From Thozetella sp. PMI_491 (taxonomy: Eukaryota; Ascomycota; Sordariomycetes; Chaetosphaeriales; Chaetosphaeriaceae), in NCBI GenBank assembly GCA_021432635.1, contig MU270042.1, forward strand, positions 409,849 to 473,848: a DNA stretch of 64,000 bases, written 5' to 3'. The notes under the pieces are model-generated. The model saw only the letters and a program-made list of their open reading frames with translations. It had not been told where the DNA came from and ran no database searches. Position numbers and translations under genes: made by a program. Of this stretch, positions 1-55,076 are shown one piece after another. Numbering within the stretch: position 1 is the first letter of the stretch; each line of letters starts with the position of its first letter.

Positions 1-3000
1 AATACTTAAATAAACTTATTATTATTAGTATTTTCTTTTTAAAGATTTAATAGTTTAATATTATATCTCTTTACTTTTAAGATTAAAATACTATAGGGTA
101 ATATACCTTATTTTTATCTAGTTAACTTAAAATATTTATCCCTATTATTATTAAAATATTAGTCTTTAAATATATTAACTACTTTAAGTTAAAATATTAT
201 AATAATAAAGCTTTTATAAAAGCTTTAACTAAAGTATTAAATACTTATAATACCTTATCTTTTAAGGTTATATCCCTTAGTTTATAGCTTTTTTTACTCT
301 CCTTTAAAAGATTAGTAAAGGGAGAGATAATCTTAGAATAGGTATAAATAAATCTCTTTATAATTTATAGGTATTAGTTATTTAATAATAATATAGATCT
401 ACTTTAAATTAATAAAAACTTCTCTAGCTAAAATTATATAGCTTAAAAAGTTTACTTACTTTTAATAAAATATATACTTCTCTAGGTTTATATATAACTA
501 AGCCTAGTTTAGTCTCTTTAAAACTTAATATAGGTATTTAATATATTATTTTTAGTCCTTTAAAAATATTAAGATATTATTTAAGTATATTATATAAAAG
601 GTATTTAATAATTTCTTTAAAGCTAGGTAGATATAGTTTTAAAAAGTTATAAGTATATTAGTTAATCTAAATAGTATAATTAAATACTTATAATAACTAT
701 AATATATTTAAAATATTATCTTTTACTTATTATTTATATAAATATAAATCTAATAATATATCTTTTTAATATTAATCTTAGAGAATATTTTTAATTTTAA
801 CACTTAATTTAAAATCTTAAAAATTAATAATAATATATATTAGTTCTTTATTATTACTTTATTTAATTCCTTATAATTTATATAAAGATAAAAGGTTTTA
901 TCTTTTTTAAGTATAAATAAGATTAAAGTACTTATTAGACTTTTTAATAATTAGATCTTATCTTATTTTAACTTGTCTTAAATATATTATTTTATTACTT
1001 TTAACTCCTTTTAAGATAGGTAATAAATTCTTTTATAAGGTAAAATAATATTAAGAAAGAGGTTAATAATATAATTTATTTCTTTATAACTAGGTAAAAC
1101 ACTAGACTTCTTTATATTAAAGACTTTAAACTAGTGTTATAGCTTTTTTAAAAGGCTTATAACTTAACCTTATTAAGTTTTAGCTTATTATCCTCTTTTA
1201 ATAAATATATTACTTTATATAAGAGAATAATAATATATATAACTGCCTTATTTTAATAGACTTTTATAAACTTTTTAAAAGAGATAATATAAATAAAGAT
1301 AGGTTTAAATATATAACACTAGTAATCTTTTTATAAAAAGAGTAAGATTCTTAACCTTTTTAAGCTTAGGTTTAATAGGATTATATTTATATCTTCTTAT
1401 TCTTTTATTATAACTATTAGTATTACTTTATATCTTTAAGTCTCTCCTTTATAATTTATTAATAAAAATAATAATTAATAGAGTCTTTTATCTTATAATT
1501 AAGGACCTCTTAGTCTTTTAATTATTAGACTTAATATTATTAATTATTTTAACTAGTATTTTTATATAAACTCTATAATAATTATATCTATTTTTATTAT
1601 AATATTTAATAATACTTTAATTTTTATATTTAAAGATTTTTTATTTTATATAAGAAATATAGTTATTTTAAAGGTATTTCTAATCTTAACTCTTATTAGT
1701 TTTATTAGTAGGACCTTTTTATTAATAGACTTTCTTTTTTCTATTATATAATTATATCTACTTATATCTTTTTAAAGTAATTAATAATTAAATAATCTCT
1801 TAAGTTATAATAATAATATAAAAACTTTTTTCTCTTATTAGATATAAGAAATAACCTTATTTCTCTTTTTAATAGTTATTCTCTTAATAGATATATTTTA
1901 AGTTTATAATTAAGTATCTCTTAAGTTAGTATTATAAAAGAGTTATATTATAATACCTTATAGTTTTAAAAGTATTTTATCTAAAAATACTTTAAGCTTA
2001 AAGATTGTTTAAAGTCTTTTTAATCTCTTATCCTTTTATATTTACTAGTCTTCCTAGTTTTTTAAAGGTATAAAAGTACCTCTTAGAGTTAAATAACTAG
2101 GTTAACTATTTATTATTAAGTATCTAGCTTTTTTATCTTATAAAGATTAATTTTATTTATTAGCTTAAAGAATAGTTTTTTATAGAATAATATAATATAT
2201 TCCTTATTACTCTTTTATTTTAGTAGTTTCTTAATATTATTTAGATAAGAGTAAAAGTTATAAGGGGATTAACCTAATTATTAAATAATATTTTCTTATA
2301 TTTAAACTATCCTTACTTTTTTATTTTAATTATTAAAGATAAAGTTATTAGTCTAGATTATAAATTAATCTTAAAAAGTTTTAATCTAGACTTATTTCTC
2401 TTTATCTTTAATAAACTTTAAATAATAGTTTTATCTAATATAATACTCTTAGTCTATATTATTTAAGGCTAGTAAGATCTTCCTTAAGCCCTTTTTATAT
2501 TTCCTTAAGGACTTTTTAAATATTTATTTCAGGTTCCTTAACTAGTTATCCCTTTAATATATACTAATTATCCTTAAGAGCTTAAAGAGGTTTTTAACCT
2601 TAACTTCCCTAGGGCTATTATCTCCTAGGGAGTCCTAGCTATTATTATTACCCTATTTATTTCACTAGGGAATTAAGATATCTCTATCCTTAAGTTTCTT
2701 TTAAAGCTTAGCCTCTTTTTATCTAAGTATATAAAGCTATTCTAATAGTTAAATTTATACTTTTATATTAATAATCTCTTTACCTTTAGTCTATACTTTT
2801 ATAATAGATACCTATACTAATAACTATTATTTTATCGTTAGGGTTTTATATTAGCTTTCTACCTCTAAAGGTTTATTTATAATTATAAAGTATAAAGGGT
2901 CTAGCTAGGTATTAGGAATAATTAACCCCTAGCTTTATTATATACTTAAATTAGTATCTTCTTAGACTAGGGCCTTTCCCTTTACTAAGCCTGATCCACC

Positions 3001-10662: not shown

Positions 10663-13542
10663 TCATTGCGAGTCATTCGATGCCCCCCACACATGGGGAG
10701 ACGCACCAGGATTCGGTTCGCCGAACGGTGTTGGCGGATCCTCGTCCACGTATTCCCGAAAGATGCGCCCACTCAACTTGGTCTGCACCTCTGACGCATT
10801 GGTGCCAAACATATCTCCAAGGTGGTCCGCGGTGATGCCGTCGCCGATCAGCGTCACCGAGACACCGGTGCGGAGGACGCGCGGAGGCACGTTGCTGACG
10901 TCGATAGAGGACATGTCCATCGAGTTGGCGCCGACGAACTCGCACTTGTATTTTCCTGCCACTAGCACATGCGGCCGTGACTCGGGGTCTCCCCTGCGGT
11001 TGCCGTTCTCGCGACGGGGCAAGCCATCGGCGTAGCCGAGCGGAATGGTGGCCAGCTTCATGGCCCGGGGCGTCGTGAATGTCCCGCCGTAGCCGACCTC
11101 CGAGCCCTTGCAGTACTCGCTGATCTGGGTGATCTTGGACCTCAGCGTCATGACCTGCTCCAGCGGGTTGCTGTCGGCATCGAAGGGCGCCTGGCCGTGG
11201 AAGGTGGCACCCATGCGTACCATATCCTTGTGTAGGGCCTTGCCTAGGAAGACGGTCGACGACGCGCCGATGGAGTGGTCTGCATCGGGGAAGTGCCTGC
11301 AGATGTCCTCAAAGTTGGCGAGCTGCCGCTGGGTGGAAATGCCCCAGCGACGCCCGTAGGGGCTGCTGCATGGCCCACGCCTTGCCATCGTCGGGTCTTC
11401 CGCCCCCAGCAGCGTGTCACCCGCCTTGGCCAGGTGGGTCATGGCCAGCTTGATGTCGATGTTCTCCAGTTCGCGCGCCCTGAGGCTGGCAAGCAGCTCG
11501 CTCGTTTCCCTGCTGCCCATGCCCGCCCGGCTCATGCCGCTGTCGAATTGGAGGACGGCCGGAAGCTGGCGCCTGGCGTCCACACCGGCCGCATTCCATT
11601 CGCGCACCTGCTGCAGGCTGTTGAGCACGGGGGTGATCTTGTACTTGATTAGCAGCCGCGGATCCGCGCCCACCAGATTCCCATCCAGCACGTTGATGGC
11701 CACGTCGCTGACCAGATCGGGCCGCGAGCTCTGCAGCATCCTCCGCAACTCGACAGCCTCTCCGATGCGCGCAACGAAGAAGTCGCGACAGCCTTCGGAT
11801 ACGAGAGTCTTGCTGACAATGTCGGCGCCAAGCCCGTAAGCGTTGGCCTTGACCACGGCGGCCGCCCGCGTGCGGCGTGGCGCTGCCTGCTGTCCATCTA
11901 CGCCTGGCTTGGGGTTGGCTAGCATTGCCAACCCGAGCCGGAAATTGCGCCGCAGCGCACCCAGGTCGATAGTCGCGATGCCGCCAGCGGCTGCGCGTAG
12001 CTGCTCGCGTTCTGACTCTTGGTCCATAGCAGCAGCATATTCCGTCGGAAAGTCTTGCGTTCTGGGAATCCCTTTACTTCCGCCTGTCGCCAACTTATCT
12101 GGCTCGCTAGTATTGATAGATTCTATGCAGATAGACGTCTTCGATGTAACAGATTTCTGTGCGCACAATACATTCCCTCTCTGCGGTTGGACGAAGGACC
12201 ACCCATCGTGTCCGTGGTCGCTAACCACGATGCGAGGGCGACGGCGTCTCCGAGGCAGAGTCCAAATCCGCCTGCTTCCAGTATTACAATTCGACATGTC
12301 GGCGTTGGGATGCATGTAGCTGCGTATGGAAGTGGCGTCACTGCTCGGGCTATATTCCTTGCCGCTCTCTTCATCCCCGGCGTCAGTCGTGCGCACTGGG
12401 CTGGGCTGTCCCGATCCCGAGTTTGCGAAGGGTTCGTAGAGCAGCCCGTTGACGAGAGCGACGACCAGGTCGGACGTTCCCTCCAAGAGCGCCGGATCGT
12501 TGGCGAGGCGCGGCGTCAGTATAGCGAGAATGGCCGTGGTCGTCGACAGGATGCCGGTCCGCACCGCCCAGGGTCCCAAGGCCCCGTTCGCGAGATAGCC
12601 CTTCTGGTATCCGACGTCCTCGATGGTCAGCTGAAGCACGTGAGCATCGCTGCCACCTCTGATCTGCGACCGCACCGAAGGGATGGCCTGAAACATGAGG
12701 TCCTCTCCGATCTCGCCCAGGAGGTTCAGTCCGCCGCGTGCCAAGGCATGCTTGATCTGCTCGACGAAGCTCGAACGCGCATTCCAGGCCGCCGATCCCG
12801 ACGGTGAGGCAAGCCGGGACATGGCCAGGTTCACGAGCCCCTGGTCTATGCCGTAGCCCACCATCATCAGACCGAAGTGTGTCCAATCTGGCACGGTGCC
12901 CGATGTGTTCGGATTCTGCAGGCGCACGCGCGACTGCACCATCAGATCCCGCATTCCGGTGTACATGGTGAAGGCGAAATGAGTCGAGGCGCTACCAGCA
13001 GCCGTGTTTGTGGCCAGCTCGGCGACTGCTGCGGCCAGGGCTGTGCCGGCCATGATAACTCTCGAGCGGCGGCTGGTGGGCGTCGCCGTTCCGGCATTCT
13101 TGTCGCGCCAGAACCCGATCGCATGGGTCACCACCGCGACACCAGCACCGGAGAGCGTCCCAATTGTCGTCCTCAGCCAGGGCGGCACGTTGGTCTTGTC
13201 AAATCCGGCTTCCACACCATAGCTGATGAACTGCCGCAACACCGTCGGAATGAACACCGACATGAAGTTGCGAGCCGTTACGTTGGCCACAGACCCCAGG
13301 ATCTTGGCGGTATCACTAGCAGAGTCCTGGTTCAGCGCAACCCGGGCTTGGAAGTCTGGCGCTTCAGATGTGTAATTCTGTAGTGTACTTGCATCGTCCG
13401 CTTTACTTTTCCGCCAGGGAGGCTGGAGCAGAGATGACAGAATTCTGGACGGCAGCATTTGACCCGAGAGCCCACACAAAGAAAATAACGTAGACTTAGG
13501 ATCGGGCAGGGCCGAGCTTAGAAGCGGTAGCTGTACTGCCAA
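10663..13542 (-). CDS. Bacterial-type PLP alanine racemase fused to an unrecognised N-terminal half
   Basis: One uninterrupted frame of 959 codons. Residues about 506-959 are a fold-type-III alanine racemase, which interconverts L- and D-alanine with pyridoxal phosphate. The PLP-lysine motif AVVKANAYGLG has its Lys near residue 565. The C-terminal catalytic Tyr lies in VGYGGTF near residue 818, followed by IPLGYADGLPR and a SMDM motif. An in-frame Met at 12027 would start a racemase of normal length (454 residues). Residues 1-400 are Ala/Gly-rich with hydrophobic helices (about 95-190) and match no family I know. Residues 410-500 are low-order linker. The fungal D-Ala suppliers TOXG and SimB belong to a different fold; bacterial-type enzymes are rarer in fungi (S. 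pombe Alr1 is one), so transfer from a bacterium is plausible. It could also be two genes with an unseen intron. Racemase assignment sure; fusion less so. Confidence 0.8.
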   Translation of the reverse strand: MAVQLPLLSSALPDPKSTLFSLCGLSGQMLPSRILSSLLQPPWRKSKADDASTLQNYTSEAPDFQARVALNQDSASDTAKILGSVANVTARNFMSVFIPTVLRQFISYGVEAGFDKTNVPPWLRTTIGTLSGAGVAVVTHAIGFWRDKNAGTATPTSRRSRVIMAGTALAAAVAELATNTAAGSASTHFAFTMYTGMRDLMVQSRVRLQNPNTSGTVPDWTHFGLMMVGYGIDQGLVNLAMSRLASPSGSAAWNARSSFVEQIKHALARGGLNLLGEIGEDLMFQAIPSVRSQIRGGSDAHVLQLTIEDVGYQKGYLANGALGPWAVRTGILSTTTAILAILTPRLANDPALLEGTSDLVVALVNGLLYEPFANSGSGQPSPVRTTDAGDEESGKEYSPSSDATSIRSYMHPNADMSNCNTGSRRIWTLPRRRRRPRIVVSDHGHDGWSFVQPQRGNVLCAQKSVTSKTSICIESINTSEPDKLATGGSKGIPRTQDFPTEYAAAMDQESEREQLRAAAGGIATIDLGALRRNFRLGLAMLANPKPGVDGQQAAPRRTRAAAVVKANAYGLGADIVSKTLVSEGCRDFFVARIGEAVELRRMLQSSRPDLVSDVAINVLDGNLVGADPRLLIKYKITPVLNSLQQVREWNAAGVDARRQLPAVLQFDSGMSRAGMGSRETSELLASLRARELENIDIKLAMTHLAKAGDTLLGAEDPTMARRGPCSSPYGRRWGISTQRQLANFEDICRHFPDADHSIGASSTVFLGKALHKDMVRMGATFHGQAPFDADSNPLEQVMTLRSKITQISEYCKGSEVGYGGTFTTPRAMKLATIPLGYADGLPRRENGNRRGDPESRPHVLVAGKYKCEFVGANSMDMSSIDVSNVPPRVLRTGVSVTLIGDGITADHLGDMFGTNASEVQTKLSGRIFREYVDEDPPTPFGEPNPGASPHVWGASNDSQ

Positions 13543-14698
13543 GGAAATTGAAAGGCATCGATGGCCAGAAAACCCATGTGAACTTCATCTCGTTCCCTCT
13601 CGGTCCGACTTCTCCAGCGGACTGGACAGCTTATATAGAGCGTGAGTCTCGTAAAGGTTGATAACGCACTACGGCTACCCCGGCTAGTAATTTCATTAAG
13701 GGCAAGCCGTAATGTAAGCTTTGGCTGTCTTGGATGCTCAGGCACATTTGTTCTTCATTGTCAAGGGATTCGATGAGACGGGGTAGGGTAAGATGGGATG
13801 CTTGGCCGGTCCCTGAGCCATTCCTGGGGTTTGTCTTCCTTCATGAGTGTCAGGGGCTCGCCGACAGCGGCCAGGGTTGGACCTCGGCAACAGCTTCGGT
13901 GATTTAAAGACAGTGGAATTACAGTCACCAAGCCAGAAAGATGATTAATTCTTGCCTACTTTTTAGCTTGTCCTCCAGGATAAAACCGTAAATCTATAAG
14001 ATGCCATTAGTCTGCAAAATAAATGTCGAGTGAAGAGTATATAAGTCATATTCTTTATTTATGCCAATATGTTTCTAGAAGTAGACTTGATAGGTATCAC
14101 CAGTGCAGCAAAGTGGATGCATTAGATGTGCCGGGTCCGGTATATTGTCTCTCACTAGCAGACCAGTCGGCTGCGAAACAGCCCCCTCGCTCCAACCTCC
14201 GCTCCCTGTTTTAACAAAGAAAAAAGAAAAAAAAGAAAGAAAAAAAAGAGGCCCTCTTTCGGAGTGAATTACTAAGTAAACCTCTTACTGCCCCGGGATT
14301 TGGCCGTCATACGGGTCGAATGGCCGGATATGGGGATGAGTTTCGACTCATCCCGCCTGCATACAGACCACCGAGATCGCACTGAATGCCGAGGATCCTG
14401 CCATCTGCTGATGTCTGGTGCAATAGGTGCAGAGAACGTAATGGCGGAATCGAATAAGTTACCTAGCACGCAGTAGTCATCAGGTCAGACTATTGTCCTA
14501 CCGAGATTGTACGCTATGATATGCCGGTGCCTCCGGAGAGTATCCGTCAACTCAAAAAGGGACTGCGCGTTCTATTGCCGTATAATTTCGCGGCGCAGTT
14601 GGTAGGTCTACCCCTTCGCTACTCCAATCCTACCCTCTGTCAGCTGCAATCTGAGGTGAGGCTTGGTGTGCATGTGTAATCTCACCGCCATCGCGCCA

Positions 14699-14735: not shown

Positions 14736-15534
14736 TTTTAGCCCCTTGCAGCGACCGTGGCGACTCGGGCGGTCTTGTTTCCAATGCCGACCTAACTTTC
14801 ACCCACGTTCTCTTTGCTCACCGGCGTGCCCATAAGCCTCTGTAAGACCGCAGAGTCCAGTGCTAAAGTAGGAAATCGACGACGGTGACATGCCGGCCAA
14901 CATTGACCTGGAGAATTTATGATGGTGGTTTAAAAGTTTTCTCGATTTGCCGTGACAAGCTATGACTTCGTATCCACTAATTAATGGGACGGCGTCGTAC
15001 ACCGCGCACAATCGTGTCGCTCAACGCCTAGATCTTATGCATGAAGATGATACTTCGTTTTGGTACTGTTGAACATAATTGTTGGCGTTTCATTGCAAAG
15101 CCTTCATAGGAGCCTCACAAGGAGGTCTAGCTTTCAGTCAACCCACTCCCTTATGAACCGACTTTCTTTCGATGGCGCTCGAGGAGGCGGAAGGACAACT
15201 GTCGGACGTACGAGAGCCAGCGCCGCCAAGATCGTGGCCGAGGTGAGGATCTGCCCCCTCTTATTACATGATAAATATCCGCAATAACATCGAGCTCACT
15301 GACTTCAATCGAATCGGTGCTGATATCATCTGACCATGATACATAGAAATTCCCGTTCGTGTCTCGCGGGCAAGTGTTGCGTGATGCTTCGTGGTAGGTT
15401 GTTGCACGGCGGGCGAAGCGTTATAACCAGCAGAGATGATCTGTTCAAATTGCAGTATTGGCTGGCCATAGACGTTGGCATGTCCATGAGCCACGGTCTC
15501 GAGACACTTCTTCACTCACAAATTATAGAGAACA

Positions 15535-15804
15535 ATGATGAGAATACATATTCCAACTATTTGTCACGTTGTAGCAATCACCGCTGTCCTTGGGTCCGAT
15601 ATGGATCATTTTACCCTGTGGATACCTTATGTGCTGCGGGGTGGGCAGAAGCGTAGATATCTCACTTTTGAAGCTCACGCAAACCTGGATTGTACTGGAT
15701 CACAAGCTGCTCTTGTGTCGTCTGGACTGCTGTGTTATTCCTACAAGAATCTGCATCAAGATTTCTTTGGTTGCATCTTTCAAGCCGGTATCACTATAAG
15801 TTAA
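15535..15804 (+). CDS. Candidate small secreted protein
   Basis: 89 codons (88 from the second Met at 15538). The start is a basic/polar residue followed by a hydrophobic stretch ending near Val-Leu-Gly-Ser, which could be a short signal peptide. The mature part has three or four Cys. No family is recognised and there is no intron or clear promoter. It sits alone in a gene-poor interval. It could be a small effector-like protein or chance. Confidence 0.25.
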   Translation: MMRIHIPTICHVVAITAVLGSDMDHFTLWIPYVLRGGQKRRYLTFEAHANLDCTGSQAALVSSGLLCYSYKNLHQDFFGCIFQAGITIS

Positions 15805-17885: not shown

Positions 17886-18988
17886 CTAGGGCGGCGTTTT
17901 CATGCCCTTGACATTCTTGGGTTTGATCGGCGGGCTCAGCATCTTCTTGCCAACGCCGTCCTCCCACTCGACGGTGACATCGCGATGCATGTTCCAGCGG
18001 ATTAGCGTATCCCACTTCTTGCAGGTGTGCACGGTGTTGAAGTTGGGATGGGGCATAGACCGGCCTTCGACCCAGTTGTAGGTCAGCAGACTGATATCAC
18101 CGTGGCACATGAGGGTCTGGCGAAGGTTCTCGACACAGTGCTCGAGGTGGCCCTGCACAACCGACTCGGGCGCGCCCGCGAAGGAGCCTTCATGCTGGTC
18201 ATAGTAGTCGCGGTGGAGGGCCTTGCGCAGCAAGTCCACGCAGTGCAGCTGGTGGAACACGTCCAGGCTAGCAAGATACTGGCCCGTACCATGGTCGCGG
18301 TCCAGGAGCACGGGGTATTCGTGGTACTCGTTCACTGCCTCCCATTGCTCCTTGGTGATGCCGATGGCGCCGCCTACCGGACCTAGGTTGTCATTACTAC
18401 GGGACTCCACCGCAGGCTCCAACGGGAGCTTAGAAACGCAGAGGCTGCTCACCATCGGTGATGTTGTCCCATGCGGCATCGACCTCTGGCCCAATACCGG
18501 TAAAAGGAGACTGGAGGCCAAAGCTGCCCTTGAACCTCTGGACCTCATACTCCACGCCCTCTTCGGCATCGGGCACTGTTTTGCTCCAAGGGTTAGCACT
18601 CTAGTGTTTCCCATGCCCACGGAAGACAGAGCAAGGCATGGCGAAGCGTTAGGGATTTAGCAGACGCACACCATTGCCCGAGCAGTCTCCCGCACTCCAG
18701 TTGGCTCAGGTGCAGTGAGGCTCGGGAAATCAACACCGTGATGGCCAGCGCCGCGCACGATGCCACTAAAAGGAGAGCCTCGAGGCTCAGTCGCCAGGTG
18801 GATGCGGGGATCCGACGTCGAGAGATCAATATAGGCTTTTCATCGGCAAGAAAGGCTTCCCCCTCGCTGGTTTCGTCGGCACTGGCAGTGCGGCTCGCAT
18901 ATTCGCCTTCTATGGGCATGTAGGCGGGATGTTCCATCTCCTTTCCGAATTTCGACAGAGATATGCGTACGAGTTTGTTCAGAGACAT
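17886..18988 (-). CDS. UstYa-family (DUF3328) oxidase of a RiPP locus
   Basis: Three exons on the minus strand: 18988-18670, 18575-18453 and 18382-17886, with introns of 94 and 70 bp. Each junction is GT-AG, frame-preserving and preceded by a branch-like site, giving about 312 residues. The start at 18988 gives a cytosolic tail of about 65 residues, then one hydrophobic transmembrane segment (about 68-90), as usual in the family. Exon 2 carries the family segment GVEYEVQRFKGSFGLQSPF. Exon 3 has both HxxHC motifs, HQLHC and HLEHC, thought to bind the catalytic metal, and the conserved CHGD that follows. Family members carry out oxidative cyclisation or hydroxylation of peptide cores in ustiloxin-, phomopsin- and epichloecyclin-type pathways. 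It is divergent from the repeat precursor 0.9 kb away, its likely substrate. Only one UstYa copy is in this locus. Confidence 0.92.
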
Positions 18989-19869
18989 GCTAACGTGTAA
19001 GTCAAGACAAGGCAGTGATATTCTGGCGAGAGGAGATCCTTGGTGTCTGGAGGAGAGAGAGATGGGAGGATCTTGAGAAAGGGACTTGAGAAAGGGAGGG
19101 GGTGGTCAGTCTCTAGTCTTCCCCTCTTCTCCTGTAGCTGCCCAAGGATGCCATGGCATCATGGCTAAGAGCAGTGAGATTGGTCACTATTGCGTATCCT
19201 CCCAATGTACGCCAAGGCGAGCCATCTAGGAAGGTCTGGCAGTTTAGGAAGGTATGTGAAAGGCTCTTTGTTGACACATGATTTTTCAAATGATTGTCGA
19301 TCCGACCGGCCGTAGAGGGTCCTCTGCAGAAGACGCCCTGTTGTCAACACCGAAATGCAACACACCACCATTCATGACGTTTGTGATGGCAGAAGTCATT
19401 GGTATCACCAATGGAAAAAGTAGGTCTCGCGATCACCGCCTGGTCGGACATCTCGGACTTGCTCTAGAGTTGCATTTAGGGGGCTCTAGCGACAGCCTCT
19501 TGGCCAGTAGGAACATGGCCGGCTCATCCATGTTTCGTCACACCTTCCAAGTTTGCTCTGGCTTGGATTGCGGGAAATGTGAGCCTTTGCGAACCTATAT
19601 GCCGTAAAGACGGCCAGTCAGGTCTAGACCGAGAGATTGCTTCGCGTCGCGCGCCAGACCGGCACTACGTCCTATATCTAGCTAGATAAGCCAAGACGGT
19701 ATCAGCAATGGGTTTGCCCCAGCTTATATCTACTCACTTCTCTATCCATCTATCCATCGATCTGTCTGTACAAGAGATTGTTCAGAGTCTTTTCCTGACT
19801 GCCAAGCCAAGTTTGCTATCTATTCCACACTCATCTTATTTACGTCCCTTTCCCAGACACTCGAACAAT
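18989..19869. promoter_or_regulatory. Divergent intergenic region between UstYa gene and precursor gene
   Basis: 881 bp separate the two start codons. It must hold the promoters of both, a layout suiting joint control. A purine-rich stretch (about 19045-19100, on the UstYa side) and a CT/ATC-rich stretch (about 19735-19770, on the precursor side) look like the 5-prime leaders. No binding site for a named regulator could be assigned. Confidence 0.6.
19724..19730 (+). promoter_or_regulatory. TATA-like box of the precursor gene
   Basis: TTATATC lies about 140 bp upstream of the start codon and is followed by a pyrimidine-rich stretch with TCTATCC/ATCTATCC repeats, as is common around fungal transcription starts. 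It implies a 5-prime leader of roughly 100-110 bases. Confidence 0.4.
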
Positions 19870-20335
19870 ATGAAGGGCGCTTACGTCGTCGCTACCATTG
19901 CTCACGCTGCGGCGGTCTGGGCTGCTGCCATCCGTAAGTTTGCCATCCCCGATGAGACAGCATGATCTTCGCTCAACCGTGCAACTAGCGGTGGACTCGC
20001 TTGGTCCGAGAAACGAAGAGAACTGGAACGCCGCGGCTTGGTCCAACTTCGTAAAGAGCTACGTGGACGGCGCCGAAGCTGGCGCTCAGAAGCGAGACGA
20101 AAACTGGAACGCCGCAGCTTGGTCCAACTTCGTCAAGAGCTACGTCGATGGCGCCGAAGATGCCGTGCAGAAGCGCGACGACAAGTGGAACGCTGCGGCT
20201 TGGTCTAACTTTGTCAAGAGCTATGTGGATGGCGCCGAGGACAGCGCTCAGAAGCGCGAAGAGAACTGGAATGCCGCTGCCTGGTCCAATTTTGTGAAGA
20301 GCTATGTTGACGGCGCCGAGGACGCCAAGGAGTGA
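19870..20335 (+). CDS. Repeat-containing secreted RiPP precursor (dikaritin type)
   Basis: Two exons, 19870-19933 and 19989-20335, around a 55-bp intron (GTAAGT donor, AACTAG acceptor). The product is 136 residues. Residues 1-20 are a signal peptide, followed by a short leader to residue 30. Four imperfect repeats follow, at residues 31-57, 58-84, 85-111 and 112-136. The first three are 27 residues long and end in Gln-Lys-Arg, a Kex2 cleavage site; the last ends at the stop. All repeats share WNAAAWSNFVKSYVDGAE; variation is confined to the two or three residues at each edge. Signal peptide, Kex2-spaced repeats and an adjacent UstYa oxidase are the defining features of UstA, PhomA and GigA-like precursors. 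GigA of Epichloe, as I recall it, also has 27-residue repeats. The cyclised core is not known; it probably includes the Tyr, perhaps NFVKSYVDG (inference). The core sequence matches no product I know. Confidence 0.93.
20015..20332 (+). repeat. Four tandem 81-bp coding repeats in the precursor
   Basis: Units at 20015-20095, 20096-20176, 20177-20257 and 20258-20332 (the last 75 bp). They differ mostly at silent third positions while the encoded 18-residue block stays identical. This points to purifying selection on the peptide rather than very recent duplication. Confidence 0.9.
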
Positions 20336-21748: not shown

Positions 21749-23362
21749 TTATCCAGTCGGCAGGCCAGATTGAACCAGAAGCTTACTTCTCTCTCGGATG
21801 TTCGGACCCCATATGACTAACACCCATGGCACTACGCCAAGAGCAAGGCCGATGCCCCCCAGCAGAAAGCCTGCACCCAGAAAGCCTAGCGAGTTAAGCA
21901 TGGGCTCTACGGCCAGCGGCAGGCAGGCAGCAAATACGTTGCGTGTGAAGGCTTGCGCGGCGATAGCCGAGCTCGCGTAAGACTGGTAGGTGTCGGCAAG
22001 ATAGTTGAAGACGGCAAGGTAGACGCTGAAGATGCCGAGGGTAAGACAGCCGAGCGAGAGCGTGGGAACGATCCAAGGTACGGCGGGGCGCGCGGTAGCA
22101 CCCAGCCAGAACAGGCCAACCGGCAAGAAAAGGCTCTGCACACAGGTGAAGAACAGGCGCGCCTCGGGCTGGTTGCGCAAGCGGGACGGCAGCACCCTTG
22201 GCGATATGTGCTCCTGCACGATAGCCGCCATGGCGGCCAGAATAGATGCGATGCTAACGGCCAAAAAGCAGAGACCGGCAGCTTGCGGAGAGAACCCGTA
22301 GGCCTCGGCAAATATCAGTGGCACAGCTTCAAAGGTCAGGTAGAGGATCGACCAAGCAAAGCCCATCCATAACGAGAACCAAAAGACGACGCTCTCGGAG
22401 ACAAGTAACTGGATCGGCCGCGTCAACGATGTCCTGAGAAGGACGGCAAGCGTTGCGCGCTGTTCGTCCGCCTCGACCTTCCAGCGCACTCTCGGGTGTT
22501 GCTTTCTCGCGCTCGCGTCCGTCTTAGTCTCGGCGCTGGGTGCGATGCTGCTGGCCTCAACTCGGTCGCACCAGGCGTTAAGAGCCCTGGCCCTCTGGCT
22601 CAGAATCACACTGCCGCGCGTCTCGGGGAAGAAGAGAAACAAAGCCGCTACCACGAGCCCGCAGGTGATAGTCTGTAGGTAATAGATCCACCGCCAGCTC
22701 AGGTGCTCAACCATGACGCCCGACACCAAAGGTCCGAGGCCGGTACCACAGAGGGCAGCCCCAGAGAAGATGGCCATGGCCGTATTGCGGTCGCGCGTTA
22801 CGTAGATATCGCTTATGACGCCTCCCACCACTGTACTGAACACGGAACACGAGAGCCCTGCAAGTGCCCGCGTCGCCAACAGCCCAGCGAAGGACGCTGT
22901 CAGGGCCGAGCCCAGTTGGCTGGCCACATAGACCACGCCTGCGGCAAGAAATAGAGGCCGCCGCCCTGTCAGCTCCGAGAACGAGGCTAGAAATAACGGA
23001 GCCACCGCAAAGCAGAGAGTGAAGAGGGTGATGCCTGCATACACCGCCGTTGAGCTGATGCCCCACTCGAGTTGATACTGGGGCTTCCCTGCGGCATACG
23101 CGCCAGGTGTGTACGTGGTGACAAAAGTGCTCAGGCACGAGAGCCAGGTCACGAACGTCTTGCGATGCTGCGGCCAGCCCTGCGGGTCCTCGTACTGAGA
23201 GAACGAAGAGCGGCGAAGCGGGACTCCATTGCCTGGAGTGGACGTCAGGTAGCCAAGGCCGGGGAACGCTGCGAGGTCGGTGGCGAAGGTCAGGTATAGA
23301 TATTCCACCGGCATGGTCACGTCGTCTTTGCCAAGTTCAAAGACTTCAGTCGCCGGATCCAT
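21749..23362 (-). CDS. MFS drug:H+ antiporter-type transporter (DHA1)
   Basis: One exon, 537 residues, normal for the family. A cytosolic N-terminus of about 65 residues ends in the DPQGWP-type segment seen before the first helix of fungal DHA1 carriers. Twelve hydrophobic segments follow. The loop between helices 2 and 3 carries SELTGRRPLFL (motif A), and GAALCGTGLGPLVSG in helix 5 is the antiporter motif C. A long hydrophilic central loop (about 270-310) separates the halves. Such proteins at the plasma membrane export small molecules or polyamines. Placed 1.4 kb from the RiPP precursor and convergent with it, it is the likely exporter or self-protection pump of that pathway (inference). 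Clean, complete gene. Confidence 0.9.
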   Translation of the reverse strand: MDPATEVFELGKDDVTMPVEYLYLTFATDLAAFPGLGYLTSTPGNGVPLRRSSFSQYEDPQGWPQHRKTFVTWLSCLSTFVTTYTPGAYAAGKPQYQLEWGISSTAVYAGITLFTLCFAVAPLFLASFSELTGRRPLFLAAGVVYVASQLGSALTASFAGLLATRALAGLSCSVFSTVVGGVISDIYVTRDRNTAMAIFSGAALCGTGLGPLVSGVMVEHLSWRWIYYLQTITCGLVVAALFLFFPETRGSVILSQRARALNAWCDRVEASSIAPSAETKTDASARKQHPRVRWKVEADEQRATLAVLLRTSLTRPIQLLVSESVVFWFSLWMGFAWSILYLTFEAVPLIFAEAYGFSPQAAGLCFLAVSIASILAAMAAIVQEHISPRVLPSRLRNQPEARLFFTCVQSLFLPVGLFWLGATARPAVPWIVPTLSLGCLTLGIFSVYLAVFNYLADTYQSYASSAIAAQAFTRNVFAACLPLAVEPMLNSLGFLGAGFLLGGIGLALGVVPWVLVIWGPNIRERSKLLVQSGLPTG

Positions 23363-24887
23363 GGACGTTTTGATGAGTCGGTTGTTAGGAGGAAGATTTG
23401 CTCTGTATTCACTGCTGGCAAGATGTCAGCTCTGCACATATCGTGGCCGTGATTTCTTTCTTTCCCAGAGGGGATGCTCACAGTATCCCCTTTGGACAAA
23501 TGTCTTTTCCGCTCTGGGTACAAGTCGCAAAGCGCGTATGCGCACGTGTTGACAAATGGGGTTGCCTGCCCCGACTGTTAAAGCAGTCCAAGAAGGCGCC
23601 GGGTGGAGTTTTGGCTCACGGCACACTTGCAAAGGCAGGTTAAGACAACAGCTTAGCCGAAATTAGATAACAGCATGGAGACGCAAGGAAGGGCGAGGTG
23701 TGCTCCTGGAAACGATAGGTTGGGTTAACGTCAGACAGCCTTTTTATGACGGCAGTGTCTCTCATTTGTAATCTCGCGCATATGGGATTCCATAGATTAT
23801 TGTTGACACCCGAGGGGTGTGGCCTATCTAGGAAGGTTGTTACGGAGAGAGGCACGGCTGCGTCGTAGCCCCCGTCTCCGGCCACCGAAGCGTCAAGCTG
23901 ACAGGTTCCAACCAAAGAAGCTTTGACATTTCTGGCTCCCAATAGGTCCAGCCTTCTTCTGAACGCCTATAGCCTCGTGAATATATGCCTCTTGGCTTGC
24001 TGAGCGCAAAGCCAAGCCTCGATTGGCCAGCGGGCAGCAGGTCTAAGGGGCACCGCTTAGTAACCTTTTTTTCTTTTTACCACTGTTTTTTAAACAACAC
24101 GCTTATATATATAAAGTAATTTCAATATCTATAGGTCAGCTATAACACAGCACTATTACAGCCAGGCTGCTATCATTACAGTATATACTACTGCCTAGCT
24201 ATAGTGAAAATATAAGTATAAGTGGGATTAAGACATCTTATAAACTCTAACATATATTCCCCTAAGAAAAAGGATACCCTTTCTAATAGGGCGTTTAGCT
24301 AAAATCTATATATATAATCGGCTTCTCTTCAAAATCAAGATAAAAGTAAGCCTATAGATACACCTTTTCTATCCCCTTTTACTACTCCTTTTCTACTAAT
24401 TAAAAATTAAAAAGAAGTGAAAAAAGTAGGGTAAAGAAAAAAAATAGATTTAAATAAAGGTTAAGATTAAAGCTAGGTTAATTTAATATATACTATATAA
24501 TCAACTCTCTCTCTCTCTCCTTTTAACTTGTTTTCTCCTTTTTTCCTTTTAAGCTTTATTAAGCTGGCTGCTTGCGATTTATGAGGGGGGGTCGGGGGTG
24601 TCTCCCTCCGCTGGCTACATATGCTGGCTTTGCTGCGCTGGCTACGCAACCTTCGGTCCTATACCCACCGAGCCATGGGCGAAGACTGACGCCACCCCCC
24701 TTAGATATGGCGCACAAGGCTCTCGGACCGTAGCGGAGGGCCAGCCGAAGCCCCCAGAGCTTGCGAAGGGTGGCTGTCGCCAGATCGCTACCTTTTAAAT
24801 CGTATAGGTAATAATAGCTGATGACCATAGGTCAGAGATATGACTGCGCCCCGCAGGGCTGCCAGTGTCATTGCGGGGCGGTATTTT
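23363..24887. other. Intergenic DNA with an AT-rich island and a G/C-run segment
   Basis: 23363-24060 carries the MFS promoter and no other gene. 24060-24560 is a small AT-rich island with TATATA runs and a CT repeat near 24507-24520, probably a RIP-degraded element. 24580-24800 is suddenly GC-rich with G-runs and short CTGGCTACG repeats, similar in style to 10.13-10.55 kb. Confidence 0.45.
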
Positions 24888-32281: not shown

Positions 32282-33118
32282 CTATTTCTGGTAAATCGCG
32301 ACATCCGCCACCATGCGAATTTTGTGAACGCCATCCTCAACCTTGTGCCATTCTCCCTGGCTCAACTCCTTTGCGATGGAGTCGATTGCTTCGTCCCATT
32401 TGTCCTCATCACGTTGCTGCCAACCACCGACAGGTGTGGCCAGGAAAGTCCAGGCGATCGTAGCCCAGCGCTTCATGTCGGTGCCGAGATTCAACCATGC
32501 CGGCTTCTCCACGTATTCGACGTCCGTCCAACCCGCATCTGTCGTCACCTGCTCGATCTTTTCCTTCTTGTACCAGCTTTTGCTGAGGAATGGAGGGATC
32601 GGTTCGTCCGCACCACGCGTCTTGTGGTGTGCGTTTTCTAAGACGAAGTGCCACGGCATCTCCTTCCACACGGCAACCGCGCCGGTTCCTCCCGGCTGTA
32701 GGGTTCGTCGGATGTGGGTCGCAGCCGCAACATCATCGCTTAAACCGGCGAATACGAAGGTTGTTAACGAAAGGTCGAAAGTATTGTCGGGAAAAGTAAG
32801 GTTGCAAGCATCCATGTTTCCGATTTTTACGGGCCAAGATGGGTTTTCGACAAGCTTTGACTGAAGCTGGGCTATGAACATTGGGTTGAGATCAGTAGCA
32901 TGGATCTGGATTTTTTCGGGCGGATTGGAATCCATGATGGCCATAGTAACCGCGCCGTAGCCGCAACCGTTGTCGTGTATGACAGCCGAGGGGGCAATGG
33001 GCGGCAAATCCTGACGCAGCAGGTCCCGCGCAATGGTATCGCTCACATCACCCTGGAGCTCCTGAAGAAGGGCACCATCGAACTTAAGGGCCTGCTTCGG
33101 GATGAATGGGGTGGCCAT
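32282..33118 (-). CDS. Class I SAM-dependent methyltransferase
   Basis: One exon, 278 residues, normal for a small stand-alone methyltransferase. Motif I is VIHDNGCGYGAVT (about 46-58), and the ribose-binding acidic residue lies in HATDLNPMF (about 74). NMDACNLTFPDNTFDLSLTTF covers motifs II-III and LQPGGTGAVAVW is the post-III strand, typical of UbiE/Methyltransf_11 enzymes. There is no signal peptide or membrane segment, so it is cytosolic. It is on the same strand as the LaeA-like methyltransferase 0.7 kb away and could be co-regulated with it. The substrate cannot be told from sequence; small-molecule or peptide O/N-methylation is the family norm. Confidence 0.9.
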   Translation of the reverse strand: MATPFIPKQALKFDGALLQELQGDVSDTIARDLLRQDLPPIAPSAVIHDNGCGYGAVTMAIMDSNPPEKIQIHATDLNPMFIAQLQSKLVENPSWPVKIGNMDACNLTFPDNTFDLSLTTFVFAGLSDDVAAATHIRRTLQPGGTGAVAVWKEMPWHFVLENAHHKTRGADEPIPPFLSKSWYKKEKIEQVTTDAGWTDVEYVEKPAWLNLGTDMKRWATIAWTFLATPVGGWQQRDEDKWDEAIDSIAKELSQGEWHKVEDGVHKIRMVADVAIYQK

Positions 33119-34055
33119 GACGGATGCCGGATTGGTTGTTCTGGGTGGAGAATGCCAGGAAATGGTAAAGGGACAGAATACCTTGAGTAAACGGTGACGA
33201 AAGGCCCTTGATGCCCCTAGCTAAAGAAACACGAATGGATTCCATCCTCGGCTTTATATTCATCCATCAAGCCGCCTGTGTGTAGCCTGATGTTTCTGTA
33301 GCCTGATGTGCAACGTACCTGCCCGCGTCGCTCCCTCCCTGCGTACCTTCCCACCTCCCTGCCAAGGCCCCTTCCGCTTCTGGGTTGGCTTCATCTGGCG
33401 GGTCCCGGGCAGCCTTGCCGGCGATTGGTTGATATAGGACCAACGACGTACTCGCATATATGACATATCCAAACAACTTGCAAGCTCATGTGTTGCAAAA
33501 TGTACATGTACGTCGAAGCAAACAAAGGTGCTGCTGATCCTTGCCCCTCTACGCAAACGCCACTCCCAACTCCCCGGTGAGGGCCAGTAATGGTCGCTAC
33601 CACATGCGGTGAGGTCGTTTCGCTCCTCATGCTGCCACTGCTGCTGCCTGCCTGGCTCTGTGCGACCCAGACCCTAGCCAATATATGCCTCTGCTACACA
33701 AGATGCGTAGTGTAAATTTCTTTTAGCCCTTCGCCCACCCCACTTAGGTGCATGCGAGTGTACCTAACTCATGTACTTTCCACCATGGGGGGCAGGTAGT
33801 TAGGTTAGGCATGCCTTTCGGCGGATAGGAGGGGTGGTCCATGTTGCTTGGTCTCCGTTTGCTTGTTCGAAATCGTATTTTCTTCCCGTTGGTGGGACCA
33901 GCCTGCTAATGATCTCTTTTTTTTTTTTTTTTCTCCCTTTCCCCTCGATCTTCCTCTCGCTATCCTAGCTTCCGGCATCGCGCTTTTCTCCGCTACGCCA
34001 GCGTCTCTTTCGTCAGTTGTTCGCTCGACACTACACCACCATTCATTCCACCACC
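33119..34055. other. Intergenic stretch with a T-rich tract
   Basis: No gene is seen before 34056. A long T-run starts near 33917, followed by a CT-rich stretch (33933-34055). Such tracts often precede highly expressed fungal genes and also occur in retroelement leaders. Confidence 0.5.
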
Positions 34056-34310: not shown

Positions 34311-34425
34311 CATGTACCTTGGTATGTATCAGGTAGTAGGTGCCGCCATGAGGTCCTAAGGGTAGCCTTGCGCAGACACTCCAGACCACACAGCACCAAT
34401 TTCTATTTCCACCGCAGTTTCCAAT

Positions 34426-35586
34426 ATGCCAGCATTCATGTCTCCATTACATTCCTCCTGGTTTTGCATCCTCGCCGTGTCTCTGGTTGTCCTACTCCTG
34501 TCGGCCGCCTTTTCGGGCACCCTCCTAGACTTTTCCTACCCAAAGTTGGACACCCAAGCGAGTGGACTAGCTGATGTCCTGATTCTCGGCGGCTCTCACG
34601 CCGGCCTGTCAGCTGCCCTCACGCTAGCAAGACAGCAGATTGACTCTATAGTCTTCGATTCGAACGAGCCGCGCAATAAGTGGAGGACCCCTATCCACAT
34701 CGTCTCGACGTGGGACGGCCGCAGTCCCGATGGAGTCCGTAAGGCCAGTCGCAGAGAGCTGAAACGCACGGGGCTGGCAAGGTTTGTACAGACGCGCATC
34801 GAGACAATCAAGACCCTGGAAGGAAACCAGACACTCTTCGAGGTGGGTGACGCACAGGGAAGGACATGGCGAGGAAGGAAGCTGCTCGTGGCTACCGGAG
34901 TGGAGTTTACCTATCCCCCGATCAAGCTCGTCGGTAGGCACCCCAGGTTTCCTTGCCAAGGCCTCTTATGCGTCCCACTTGCTAAAACCTCCGATAATCA
35001 GCCTCCATTGCTTGTTTACCCGAGGCCTGGAGTTTAAGGGAAGCCGATCCGCTGGATTGCTTGCTGAAGGTCTTACCGGAAGCCCCTTCCATGCTGCCAT
35101 GTTAGTGGAGGATGCGCAGAAATTTGTCCACACTGTGACTGTCTACACCAACGGGAACCCAGCCCTAACCCACAAATCCAAGGATTGCTTGTTTCGAGAG
35201 GAGATGAGACGGTTCATGTCGATGACCGCGAGATTACGCAATTGTCCAAAGCCTCGGCTGGCTCCGGGATTAAGATTCACTTGGACAATGACGAAGTCAA
35301 GGCGGAGAGTTGTCTCGTCCGCCAGCCGGCGACTCAAGCTAGCCCGGAAATTGTGCGGCAGCTGGGATTGGAGTGCAATGAACGTGGGGATATCATTGGG
35401 AAGATGCCTTTCCAACACACCAATGTGCCTGGGGTTTTCGCTGCTGGTGATAGCGCGAGCCCTTTCAAGGTCGTGCCAAATGCGCTCTTCCAGGGCTCCA
35501 ACCCTGGTGCGGGGATCGCCCGAGAGCTGCCTAGAAGGGTTACTGGGCACGAAGCTGATCGCATAAAGGAACAGATGATAATATGA
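34426..35586 (+). pseudogene. GliT/thioredoxin-reductase-like FAD oxidoreductase, frameshifted and lacking the CxxC pair
   Basis: The N-terminal frame (34426-34933) has a hydrophobic lead segment, then the FAD-binding VLILGGSHAGLSAALTLAR and ATGVEF. A middle segment in another frame (about 35002-35180) matches the redox-centre region, but the usual C-x2-C reads CLFT, so the second Cys is Thr. It is followed by VTVYTNGN. The C-terminal part, back in the first frame (35185-35586), carries the second FAD motif, FAAGDSASPFK, and a normal end. An intron 34934-35001 is tempting (GTAGGC donor, AATCAG acceptor) but leaves the wrong phase. No intron explains the second shift without removing conserved text. 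Two compensating one-base changes or assembly errors are likely. Homologues form or protect disulfides (GliT) or oxidise other substrates. Without the Cys pair, dithiol chemistry is not expected. Confidence 0.6.
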
Positions 35587-42900: not shown

Positions 42901-44151
42901 TCAAGCACCGTGAAAGGTTGCCATCTCCAACACCCAAATATGCCACCCAAAAACCCAGGTATACCCAGCAACTCTTGTAAGTATAGATGACTGATATACT
43001 CCCATCAACCGTGCCCATAGGCTCTGAAAGATTTCTTCCGCCACAATGCCGACCACCTGAATCGACCAGATCCAAAAGTTCCACGAACACCCATGGCGCG
43101 AACATTCGAGCGAGTCAAGGCACCACGCCATGGAAAGGTGCATCAGGCCAGATATAATAAATACAAGAGTGTTGTTAATATATCTAGTCGATTGTTTCCC
43201 TCTCTCTAGCCTTAAAATCCGCTGGCTGAATGTCCCGGCGATAGTGTTGAAGGAGCGATAGACAAGTAAGTGCCAGTATCTTGCCCAATATCTTCGGAGT
43301 GTGTAGGATTCGATGAGACTTCCGTATAGTGGAGGCCATTCGGACGGGGCATCGAGGTCAGCAGCGACCGCGGCAATGGCACAGATGTCGTGGTGCGCGC
43401 AAGCTGTCCACTCCAGGACAAGTACTTGTTCGACTAACAGACGGATACGGACGGCGATCTCTAGCAGCAATGTGCCATCGTGACATGTTTGACGCGGTTG
43501 TACGAGGCAAGCCCCGAGCCGGAGCAAGAGGAAGCGCTTTTCGGGAGTAGCCTGCCATGAGCCCCATGCCTCGGGCATTCCATCCAGGTACGCTGCCATC
43601 TCCCAGAAGATGCACAGGGCAGCGTAACGGTATATCAGAGTCGCCATACGGCGGCTAATGAAGGCCAATCTGGACCTGCACTCTGTAGCCTTAGTGGGAT
43701 AAAGGATGGGAGCCTGCCATGAGGTGCCGATCAGGCGCGGGTTCCAGAGGAGCTTATATGCAAACTTCCAGTTTGGAATACGGCTGTCGGGGCTGCCTCC
43801 ATCCCGGCTAGCACTAGCCTTTCCATACTCTCTCCTCTCGTCATCGAGACGCTCGGGAGATATTATTAAATGGAGAAAGCCTTGGTAAAAAATGAAAACG
43901 AAAGTAATAGGTATAAGATATTCCGGCAGGAGGGGGAAGAAGTTTCCGGGATTTCTCAAAGCCCAGAGGGCGAGGCCGGCGATAACGGCAAAGGTGAGAT
44001 GTGGTCGGTTGTTTCGTTTCGAGAGCGAGATTAGAGCGACGCCGAATGCCAATAGTAAACGGAACCAGCCACGTAAAAAATACTGCACCGCGGTCGGGTC
44101 GTCAAGGTCCCGATAGACCATCTCAGCGGTTCTCGTAGTTCTAGATGGCAC
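42901..44151 (-). CDS. Wax-synthase-like membrane O-acyltransferase
   Basis: One exon, 416 residues, usual size for the fungal wax-synthase/MBOAT-like family that includes the trichothecene acetyltransferase Tri7. Hydrophobic segments lie near residues 28-42, 52-66, 76-98, 170-190, 330-350 and 365-382. The family signature is present as WPPLYGSLIESYTLRRYWAR, followed by YWHLLVYRSF (about 270-300). The presumed catalytic His lies in the later segment FIISGLMHLSMAW (about 333-345). The enzyme should move an acyl group from an acyl-CoA to a hydroxyl in the ER membrane. It lies 1 kb from a UstYa gene (divergent) and 4.3 kb from a FAS alpha gene, so acylation of the same product is a reasonable guess. 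Substrate unknown. Confidence 0.85.
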   Translation of the reverse strand: MPSRTTRTAEMVYRDLDDPTAVQYFLRGWFRLLLAFGVALISLSKRNNRPHLTFAVIAGLALWALRNPGNFFPLLPEYLIPITFVFIFYQGFLHLIISPERLDDERREYGKASASRDGGSPDSRIPNWKFAYKLLWNPRLIGTSWQAPILYPTKATECRSRLAFISRRMATLIYRYAALCIFWEMAAYLDGMPEAWGSWQATPEKRFLLLRLGACLVQPRQTCHDGTLLLEIAVRIRLLVEQVLVLEWTACAHHDICAIAAVAADLDAPSEWPPLYGSLIESYTLRRYWARYWHLLVYRSFNTIAGTFSQRILRLERGKQSTRYINNTLVFIISGLMHLSMAWCLDSLECSRHGCSWNFWIWSIQVVGIVAEEIFQSLWARLMGVYQSSILTRVAGYTWVFGWHIWVLEMATFHGA

Positions 44152-44740
44152 TGGACTAGCTCGTTAGAATCTCGTTGCCTGAAGCCTGGGACTGTCGCTA
44201 AAGCTTCCAGTCCGAGAAGATATGTATGCAATCACAGTTCCTGCTTTATACCTGACCAAGGGCTCCTTTTTTCGATCTGCTTGCCACAGGGGTGGGCAGA
44301 TCCCGCTCCGTATCCCTCGCCATGAGGGGTTATTAATAATTTTCTCGGTGATGGCCGTCAGCAATGCAGATGGTTTCACCAAGGGTCACACTCCTTTAAC
44401 TCACGACCTACCTTGATAGTTTAGCCCGGTCTCCGTCCACGCCATTCCTGGCAAAACAGTGACTGAACAGTGCAGGGTTATACACCAAACTCTAAGCGCT
44501 TCGTGTCGCACCGCCTAGAAACCTATGGTGCTCATTTATTGCATGCACAAGGGCGCACATGAAGCATGGTTGCATAGCTTTGATACACTAACATTCCCGG
44601 CTGGCATGCGCATCTTCCTGAGGTTGCCTGGAGGATTAATTCGGCAACAGGGTAATGTGCTGGCTGTCACATGCGAGCTAATGCATTCGAATCCAGGAAA
44701 GCTTGTCGGCTTGGTTCCCTACGGCAAGAAACCGGGCAGC

Positions 44741-45168: not shown

Positions 45169-45979
45169 ATGTCTTCGGAACGGAAGCTGCAATACGCCCC
45201 TATTGACACAGAGGACGATGGATCTTCGTGCAACGGTGTCGACGCATCCGAACCATTTAGTAACAACGACAGAAAGCAGACGAGCAGACGGCGACTGCCG
45301 TTGCTGTGCATTCTACTATGCTACGGCGTGCTATCCACCGTCACTGCGATTCTCATGGTAGCCCACATAGCCAGCGGCTTTGGGAAGCAGGGCAATGCGT
45401 GCTTAGGGGAAGGAGAGTACATCACCACCTCCTTTGGACTAGACAATTCGAAGTGGGGCTTGATGTCTACTGATCCGCGATATGACTACCTCTGGGACGA
45501 AGGGCACAACGACGACGTCATACCGTACTTTGAAGACGATGACCACCACGGGGAAGATGGTTTCGGGTTTATAACAATGTGAGTCCACGAATAATCTAGC
45601 TTATCGTCTGGCTTCCCGTTGACTCGAATAGGTTCCACCAGCTACATTGCATTGCTCGTATTCGCAAGGCCTTGCAGCTAGCCCACCAAGGGGTAGATCC
45701 TGGTGTGGACTCGCGGTCCGATGCTCACTGGCCCCACTGCTTAGGATATCTCAGACAGGTAACCATTTCACAACAATGCCATTTCGTTGCTAATTGCTTG
45801 TTCAGTCGGTCCTTTGCTGGGCGGATGGCACGATAGAAAGACGACCACGTCTTCCAAATGGAACGATTGCAGGTGGGATTGACGGCGCCGACGACCTCAG
45901 AAAGTGCGGCAACAGTCGGAAGCTATTTAAGATGGCCCGAGATCATGGTTTAGAGATCAAGATTGCCGAGTTCCCATAG
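45169..45979 (+). CDS. Second UstYa-family (DUF3328) oxidase
   Basis: Three exons, 45169-45578, 45632-45758 and 45806-45979, with introns of 53 and 47 bp. Both are GT-AG and frame-preserving, giving 236 residues. I chose the ATG at 45169 because the protein from there has the usual short cytosolic tail (about 45 residues, polar) and then a transmembrane segment (about 45-70, LPLLCILLCYGVL). Both metal-binding motifs are present: HQLHC at the start of exon 2 and HWPHC later in that exon, followed by VLCWADGTIE. The middle is Asp/His-rich (near residue 120). Such proteins act in RiPP pathways and also in some NRPS pathways such as cyclochlorotine, as cyclases, hydroxylases or chlorinases. Here the nearest partners are an acyltransferase, a short secreted peptide and FAS alpha; no repeat precursor is beside it. 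Confidence 0.9.
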
Positions 45980-54555: not shown

Positions 54556-55076
54556 TATTGAGCTGGGGGTAGTCAGTGGAATTTTTTCTTTTTGCCCAGC
54601 GTGGCCCTGGTACGGGAGGAACTGTATGGTGGATCCAGACCCTGGTCTGACCAGGCCATGCCAGCTCGATTTGTATAAGTAGTTAAAGGATGCCGTCCTA
54701 CCTCAGGGAGGAGGACCATCCAGTCATCAATCGATCAAGATCCATCAGTCCATTATTCTAGCAATCAACTTCATACATTCGTTTCCCTAGACAAGAACAA
54801 CCACAAGACCACTCTGCACGACCATTACGGGGCTTCGCCCCATTCCTACGTGTTCATCCTGCCCTGGTCAGAGCCCAGCACTCGTTGGATCTCGCATTGG
54901 CATGCCCTCTTCCACGTACCACTAGACTTACGCTGCTTCAACGGCCCTACCTACGAACAGGATCGCAAGGTCGTGGTATTGGTTCCGCGCTGTGGCTACT
55001 AGGCTACGGAGTGTATGGTGGTGGTGTTGTGTGTAGGTTGTTCCGCACGTGCTCTGCTTCCTGCTCCCCGTTCTCA
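54556..55076. repeat. Dispersed repeat, copy B (solo-LTR-like)
   Basis: 521 bp, direct-oriented partner of 42171-42594. It carries an extra block of roughly 85 bases (about 54592-54677) containing the near-palindrome CCAGACCCTGGTCTG. The ends read TATTGAG and CTCACTA. The two copies differ at scattered, mostly transition positions. Confidence 0.8.

Follow-up and report, generated by a model that had tools for sequence, protein, structure and literature searches.

The genome of the ascomycete Thozetella sp. PMI_491 carries a compact two-gene unit in which a four-repeat precursor of the Kex2 type is encoded divergently from a single oxidase gene of the UstYa (DUF3328) family. We consider it probable, at roughly 0.6, that this is a minimal RiPP unit, whose Kex2-released units are oxidised, most likely ring-closed, by the UstYa oxidase. 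The unit belongs to a known kind, 'Kex2 repeat protein plus DUF3328'; a published survey reports DUF3328 genes near 1758 of 7878 Kex2 repeat proteins (PMC7329392). What stands out is not a new architecture, it is a near-frozen core that occurs with an orthologous oxidase over four classes of fungi. We describe the two genes, their relatives in other species, and the readings that these allow. The term window is used for the whole stretch of DNA analysed (64,000 nucleotides, C28:409849-473848), which comes from an assembly of 72.3 Mb in 157 contigs. Coordinates within it are collected in Table 1.

Table 1. Features of the two-gene unit and of its surroundings, in window coordinates
Feature	Position	Strand	Details
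UstYa/DUF3328 oxidase gene	17886..18988	-	312 aa; exons 18988-18670, 18575-18453, 18382-17886
Intergenic stretch between the divergent genes	18989..19869	.	881 bp
Precursor gene	19870..20335	+	136 aa; exons 19870-19933 and 19989-20335; ATG 19870
Signal-peptide-like start	19870..19932	+	MKGAYVVATIAHAAAVWAAAI; hydropathy peak inside residues 4-21
Precursor intron	19934-19988	+	55 nt, GTAAGT...CTAG
Repeat unit 1	20015..20095	+	27 aa; core 20024-20062
Repeat unit 2	20096..20176	+	27 aa
Repeat unit 3	20177..20257	+	27 aa
Repeat unit 4	20258..20332	+	25 aa, stop codon next
MFS transporter frame	21749..23425	-	PF07690, E=2.1e-38; next Pfam-matching frame past the precursor
Alanine-racemase frame	10666-13584	-	first 565 residues without Pfam match
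Methyltransferase frame	32285-33220	-	
MBOAT frame	42904-44163	-	
Fatty-acid-synthase alpha-type frames	48679-53563	+	in the same 52-kb island

An earlier, sequence-only reading of this DNA had proposed a precursor with an in-phase intron, units of 27, 27, 27 and 25 residues, Lys-Arg (KR) separators and an invariant 18-residue block, and the gene model confirms it. The block, WNAAAWSNFVKSYVDGAE, is identical in all four units. Units 1-3 end in QKR, and the precursor has the KR-separated repeats of a Kex2-processed repeat protein (KEP); the first unit is preceded by GPR, not KR. Three relatives (P0002, P0006 and P0008) have starts comparable to the signal-like start of the precursor. Judged by eye, the proteins P0002 and P0006 continue without a break where the intron lies, and P0001 and P0007 show an apparent in-frame read-through at its position; on this comparison the relatives seem to back the intron. 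Calculated linear monoisotopic masses are 2785.23 Da for DENWNAAAWSNFVKSYVDGAEDAVQ and 1542.73 Da for WNAAAWSNFVKSY.

At the nucleotide level, 12 of the 18 block codons differ among the four copies, and all 12 changes are third-position and silent. An all-silent outcome arose in none of 20,000 random placements of 12 changes (mean 2.98 silent), which argues that the peptide itself is under selection. Whole-genome searches, in which the best candidates only were scored, gave no second copy of the precursor. Against Pfam the precursor has three weak matches, all under cut-off (best DUF3669, 19.8 bits against 22), and these were taken as chance. A Kex2-type P-domain match lies on contig C4 of the same genome (E=6.5e-18); the three stops inside it may reflect an intron.

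Relatives of the precursor were collected in two ways. A single-sequence search found 11, and a profile search found 20 that include those 11: 19 at E<=2e-8, and P0020 of Acrodontium at E=0.31, a weak match that gains support from lying next to an orthologous oxidase. The 19 relatives and the weak one have in common the core W-N-[AS]-x-A-W-S-N-F-[VI]-K-[SV]-Y. Named hosts are Biscogniauxia marginata, Xylariaceae sp. FL0255, Penicillium hordei, Rasamsonia byssochlamydoides, Stipitochalara longipes and Acrodontium crateriforme. Residue counts were made on 50 units with at least 6 of 13 core matches, drawn from 21 precursors (those of the window and P0020 included), with one degenerate unit of P0017 left outside. 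W6, S7 and F9 are kept in all 50, N2, A5, N8 and Y13 in 49, and W1 and K11 in 48. For the 25 distinct unit types, pairwise identity averages 0.81 at positions 1-13 versus 0.29 at positions 14-16. In 50 family repeats picked by a pattern that fixes A5, W6 and part of positions 7 and 9, glycine stands at unit position 16 in 13, and the single cysteine found is in the degenerate P0017 unit, none being conserved in the core. Conservation of this kind is easier to reconcile with a signal or a constrained target than with a toxin that changes fast.

The divergent neighbour had been credited with both HxxHC motifs of UstYa; these are present, as HQLHC at residue 191 and HLEHC at residue 226, in a protein that matches PF11807 at 168.2 bits (cut-off 25, E=3.1e-49). 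It has a single predicted N-terminal membrane helix at about residues 67-90, with a hydropathy maximum of 2.46 at residue 69. The join between its first two exons was set from aligned orthologues, where LGQWLPDAE or a near variant is the usual reading; a 319-aa model with another first intron served as the query for the orthologue search, for the alignment and for the sequence search of solved structures. The predicted fold of the Biscogniauxia orthologue, a model of moderate confidence (mean pLDDT 69, pTM 0.54, 32 aligned sequences), has the HxxHC motifs sitting on a pair of helices (172-187 and 204-225), behind helix 45-72. As modelled, this two-helix arrangement would agree with that described for CctR, which is reported to be a copper-dependent dicopper enzyme that hydroxylates (PMC12435403). 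Among solved structures there was no sequence match to the oxidase profile or to one repeat, and a fold search gave 0 of 67 matches at E<=0.001.

The two genes also occur together elsewhere. The search with the 319-aa model found 49 proteins at E<=1e-10, the top 17 of them at E<=2e-85. In four of the six named precursor species, a precursor and an oxidase orthologue lie on one contig, and the four oxidases are all within the top 17. Co-location was taken from the same organism name together with the same longest-contig value: 562445 for Biscogniauxia marginata, 363345 for Rasamsonia byssochlamydoides, 2788198 for Stipitochalara longipes and 1278406 for Acrodontium crateriforme. Consecutive identifiers place the genes side by side in Rasamsonia (VTN77DRAFT_3164/3165) and Acrodontium (R9X50_00557400/00557500), and for the Biscogniauxia and Stipitochalara pairs a contig in common is the extent of the linkage seen. 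These four species are of four classes, the Sordariomycetes, Eurotiomycetes, Leotiomycetes and Dothideomycetes.

Pairing is incomplete on both sides. The search matches contain no oxidase orthologue for Penicillium hordei or Xylariaceae sp. FL0255, and ten named oxidase-bearing species have no precursor among the relatives found (Xylaria intraflava, Cryphonectria parasitica, Ustulina deusta, Eutypa lata, Akanthomyces lecanii, Bathelium mastoideum, Meristemomyces frigidus, Penicillium nordicum, Penicillium odoratum and Setomelanomma holmii). Clustering at 90% identity and overlooked small genes may account for these gaps. The rough chance of a UstYa gene so near a random locus is 0.4-0.7%. The coupling of a Kex2-type repeat precursor to a UstYa-type oxidase, first proposed from this locus, where the genes diverge 881 bp apart, is supported, and it is stronger than was then known because orthologues of both genes lie on one contig in four other species.

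In a tree of 41 rows, the window's oxidase and the four linked oxidases fall together in one clade of 16 (98/95). The genome's own UstYa frames were sampled for it (13 of 149 exon matches, the motif being checked in each); rows P0034, P0035, P0038 and P0039 were left out, and P0040 and P0055 were taken in. None of the 13 falls inside the clade, so the pair concerns one orthologue group and not any UstYa. Eight rows outside the clade are on long branches, which makes their placement unsure. The closest grouping of the window's oxidase is with those of Cryphonectria and Akanthomyces (99/95), among rows that are mostly from Sordariomycetes, a placement that gene transfer could distort. Two further observations concern the history of the oxidase: those of Rasamsonia and Stipitochalara pair (100/99) although the species are of different classes, and that of Akanthomyces lecanii, on a 35-kb contig, is 92% identical to the window's over 208 columns. 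Gene transfer or contamination is possible in these cases.

Beyond the gene structures, the selection on the core, the orthology and the co-location in other species, we infer a reaction, ring positions, trimming and release of a peptide, as follows. The intergenic stretch likely carries the promoters of both genes. The precursor would enter the secretory pathway by its signal-like start, and host Kex2 would cut behind each Lys-Arg, to give four near-identical pieces of 25-27 residues. The UstYa oxidase, a membrane-bound enzyme of the dicopper type whose catalytic part would face the Golgi lumen, would recognise the constant block and oxidise the core WNAAAWSNFVKSY, with closure of one or more rings as the most likely outcome. 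Such a ring may join the side chain of an aromatic residue (Tyr13, perhaps Trp1, Trp6 or Phe9) to a carbon close by. Trimming of the acidic ends and secretion of the peptide would follow. A ring through Tyr13 or another aromatic would be most likely by analogy with AprY, a DUF3328 protein reported as essential for bicyclic asperipin-2a, for which sequential oxidative macrocyclization is indicated (PMC6514808). The constant block has 13 residues versus 4-9 for the cores named in the papers compared; some of these 13 may therefore serve for recognition and not end up in the product.

The main rival to ring closure is another oxidation: the oxidase may hydroxylate, dehydrogenate or halogenate the core without closing a ring. 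Besides macrocyclisation, DUF3328 members have been linked to hydroxylation, halogenation and isomerisation, CctR being a hydroxylating case (PMC12435403); moreover the unit has a lone DUF3328 gene on a contig without a tyrosinase match. We nevertheless hold this to be unlikely, since one DUF3328 enzyme is reported as essential for the bicyclic asperipin-2a (PMC6514808) and the near-invariant aromatics, such as Tyr13 in 49 of 50 units, suit cross-linking. Less likely again is a linear, pheromone-like peptide hormone, with an adjoining oxidase that is unrelated or regulatory. The strong conservation of the core across classes and the repeat-KR layout, like that of alpha-pheromones, would fit such a hormone, as would the 6120 of 7878 surveyed Kex2 repeat proteins without a DUF3328 neighbour (PMC7329392). 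It is at odds with the orthologous oxidase that shares a contig with the precursor in four of the six named species, and with the same survey, where pheromone-type precursors almost all have no DUF3328 neighbour, with three exceptions (PMC7329392). The core is also without a conserved cysteine: the precursor has neither the cysteine pair nor a known motif by which alpha-pheromones are recognised, and no pheromone family is among its Pfam matches. Cysteine-free pheromones of the Pleosporales type are on record, however (PMC6339444).

Two further readings are weaker still. The product might be a secreted repeat protein that is left uncut or is cut only in part, such as a membrane-active helix or a protein of the wall, as the Trp-rich 13-residue block and the lack of KR or RR in 3 of 29 inter-unit gaps (P0003, P0016 and P0018) could suggest. 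We find this very improbable, given that KR or RR is present in the other 26 gaps and that the helical moment of the core is unexceptional; as 2042 of 5000 shuffles were as high, an amphipathic-helix peptide was rejected. A decayed or chance open frame is the least credible reading of all, in view of variation that is silent only, introns that splice in frame, and relatives in several classes.

Oxidation of Kex2-released units by the UstYa oxidase, our preferred reading, can be set beside described systems. The asperipin-2a unit is reported to consist of aprA, aprY, a transporter gene aprT and a reductase gene aprR, with the 6-residue core FYYTGY (PMC6514808). Like it, the unit described here has a ribosomal precursor, a single DUF3328 enzyme and a transporter-type gene near. 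The differences are the 13-residue constant block, as against a 6-residue core, and the reductase: the frames scanned hold no isoflavone-reductase-type match, the nearest redox frames being at 34366-35583, 14 kb away. Unlike aprT, moreover, the MFS gene here is simply a neighbour, possibly, from its position, the exporter of the unit. With the ustiloxin and phomopsin clusters there are in common Kex2-type repeats and DUF3328 oxidases (PMC7329392, PMC9233826, PMC6514808). Those clusters are described as having a tyrosinase, and S41 peptidases as conserved members, and neither is on this contig: 0 of 80 tyrosinase (PF00264) and 0 of 7 S41 peptidase (PF03572) exon matches in the genome fall there. 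The label 'dikaritin', given to the locus from sequence, therefore holds for a DUF3328 gene beside a repeat precursor, but not in its strict sense, and a full dikaritin cluster was rejected. Epichloecyclins, made from the precursor GigA with Tyr-based oxidative cyclization (PMC6514808, PMC9233826), likewise come from a four-repeat precursor with KR sites. A suggested likeness to an Epichloe nonapeptide found no support: INFKIPYTG, as given there, has K straight after F and Y three residues on, where the core here has F-x-K-x-Y. By this by-eye spacing and the unconserved glycine at position 16 (13 of 50), kinship is disfavoured, and the likeness is probably chance.

Around the unit, Pfam was scanned with 31 of the window's 81 stop-to-stop frames of at least 110 aa, plus the two spliced proteins. 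The stretch 13.6-17.9 kb holds a single frame of that size (15324-15653), with no Pfam match. A repeat scan gave no further Kex2 repeat precursor in the window. A second, smaller, putative DUF3328-like gene lies at about 45169-45979 (+), with a PF11807 match at 45621-45761 (E=1.3e-6) and, by eye, two HxxHC-type motifs (HQLHC and HWPHC). The alanine-racemase, fatty-acid-synthase, MBOAT and methyltransferase frames may belong to other biosynthetic clusters. AT-rich blocks (1-3000 and 55001-64000, 15-34% GC) surround a 52-kb island of 38-66% GC per kb; these look like repeats hit by repeat-induced point mutation.

The DUF3328 repertoire of this genome is large, with at least 149 UstYa exon matches (not a gene count), some in frames with internal stops that may be due to introns or to decay. 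We examined 30 of these 149 matches, in loci of 3.3-3.9 kb each, and in four there are KR-separated repeat frames about 1.5 kb or less from UstYa, with cores quite different from the one described here: AGIDYIKEG in about 12 copies (L006), EPGTYGVDTFGAI in at least three (L013), SEAQSPDILYNNPAGWG in about five (L019) and EANNVDVVLKAENWGT in about six (L026). The window's own locus is included among the 30; it stops just short of the precursor and so shows no repeat frame. From these four, Thozetella sp. PMI_491 seems to have several such units.

The locus had been called undescribed-looking, and for the core this stands in the open-access main texts searched; supplementary tables and figure images were outside the scope of that search, as were most subscription journals. 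None of the texts searched contained the core words. The main texts of the secretome, Trichoderma, lichen and Venturia papers lack AWSNF or WSNF and WNA, and that of the main survey (PMC7329392) lacks AWSNF and WNAA. None of the printed motifs DADAATXYV[A/V]D, YVW[G/A][G/S], SPPHKT and QKLKVD (PMC7329392, PMC6339444) matches this core. It is possible that the family was listed earlier under a type number, unnamed. Conserved Kex2 repeat types such as G-3, G-6, G-8 and G-10 are reported as multi-genus, several adjoining DUF3328 genes (PMC7329392, PMC6339444), and in this the present family, a multi-genus repeat protein next to a DUF3328 gene, is like them. Umemura type G-6 occurs with DUF3328 in Hypoxylon, Penicillium and others and is rich in Y and D (PMC7329392). 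Compared by description, which makes this a guess, G-6 is better fitted by DADAATXYV[A/V]D (PMC6339444), and identity of the present family with G-6 was rejected.

Most Kex2 repeat types in the main survey are confined to a single genus (PMC7329392). Here one core returns in the company of an orthologous oxidase in species of four classes. With its small size and constant substrate, the unit offers a clean way to study how a DUF3328 oxidase chooses residues, and a profile of the core helps to find precursors overlooked by annotation. The pair also lets one ask whether DUF3328 enzymes make conserved signals too. We put forward, tentatively and as rather doubtful for now, an old, class-spanning peptide signal in which a dedicated UstYa orthologue would mature the near-frozen 13-residue Trp/Phe/Tyr core as a cross-linked RiPP, possibly with Trp in the cross-link. 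If that were true, DUF3328 chemistry would be at work in communication or development of a conserved kind rather than in making a lineage-specific toxin.
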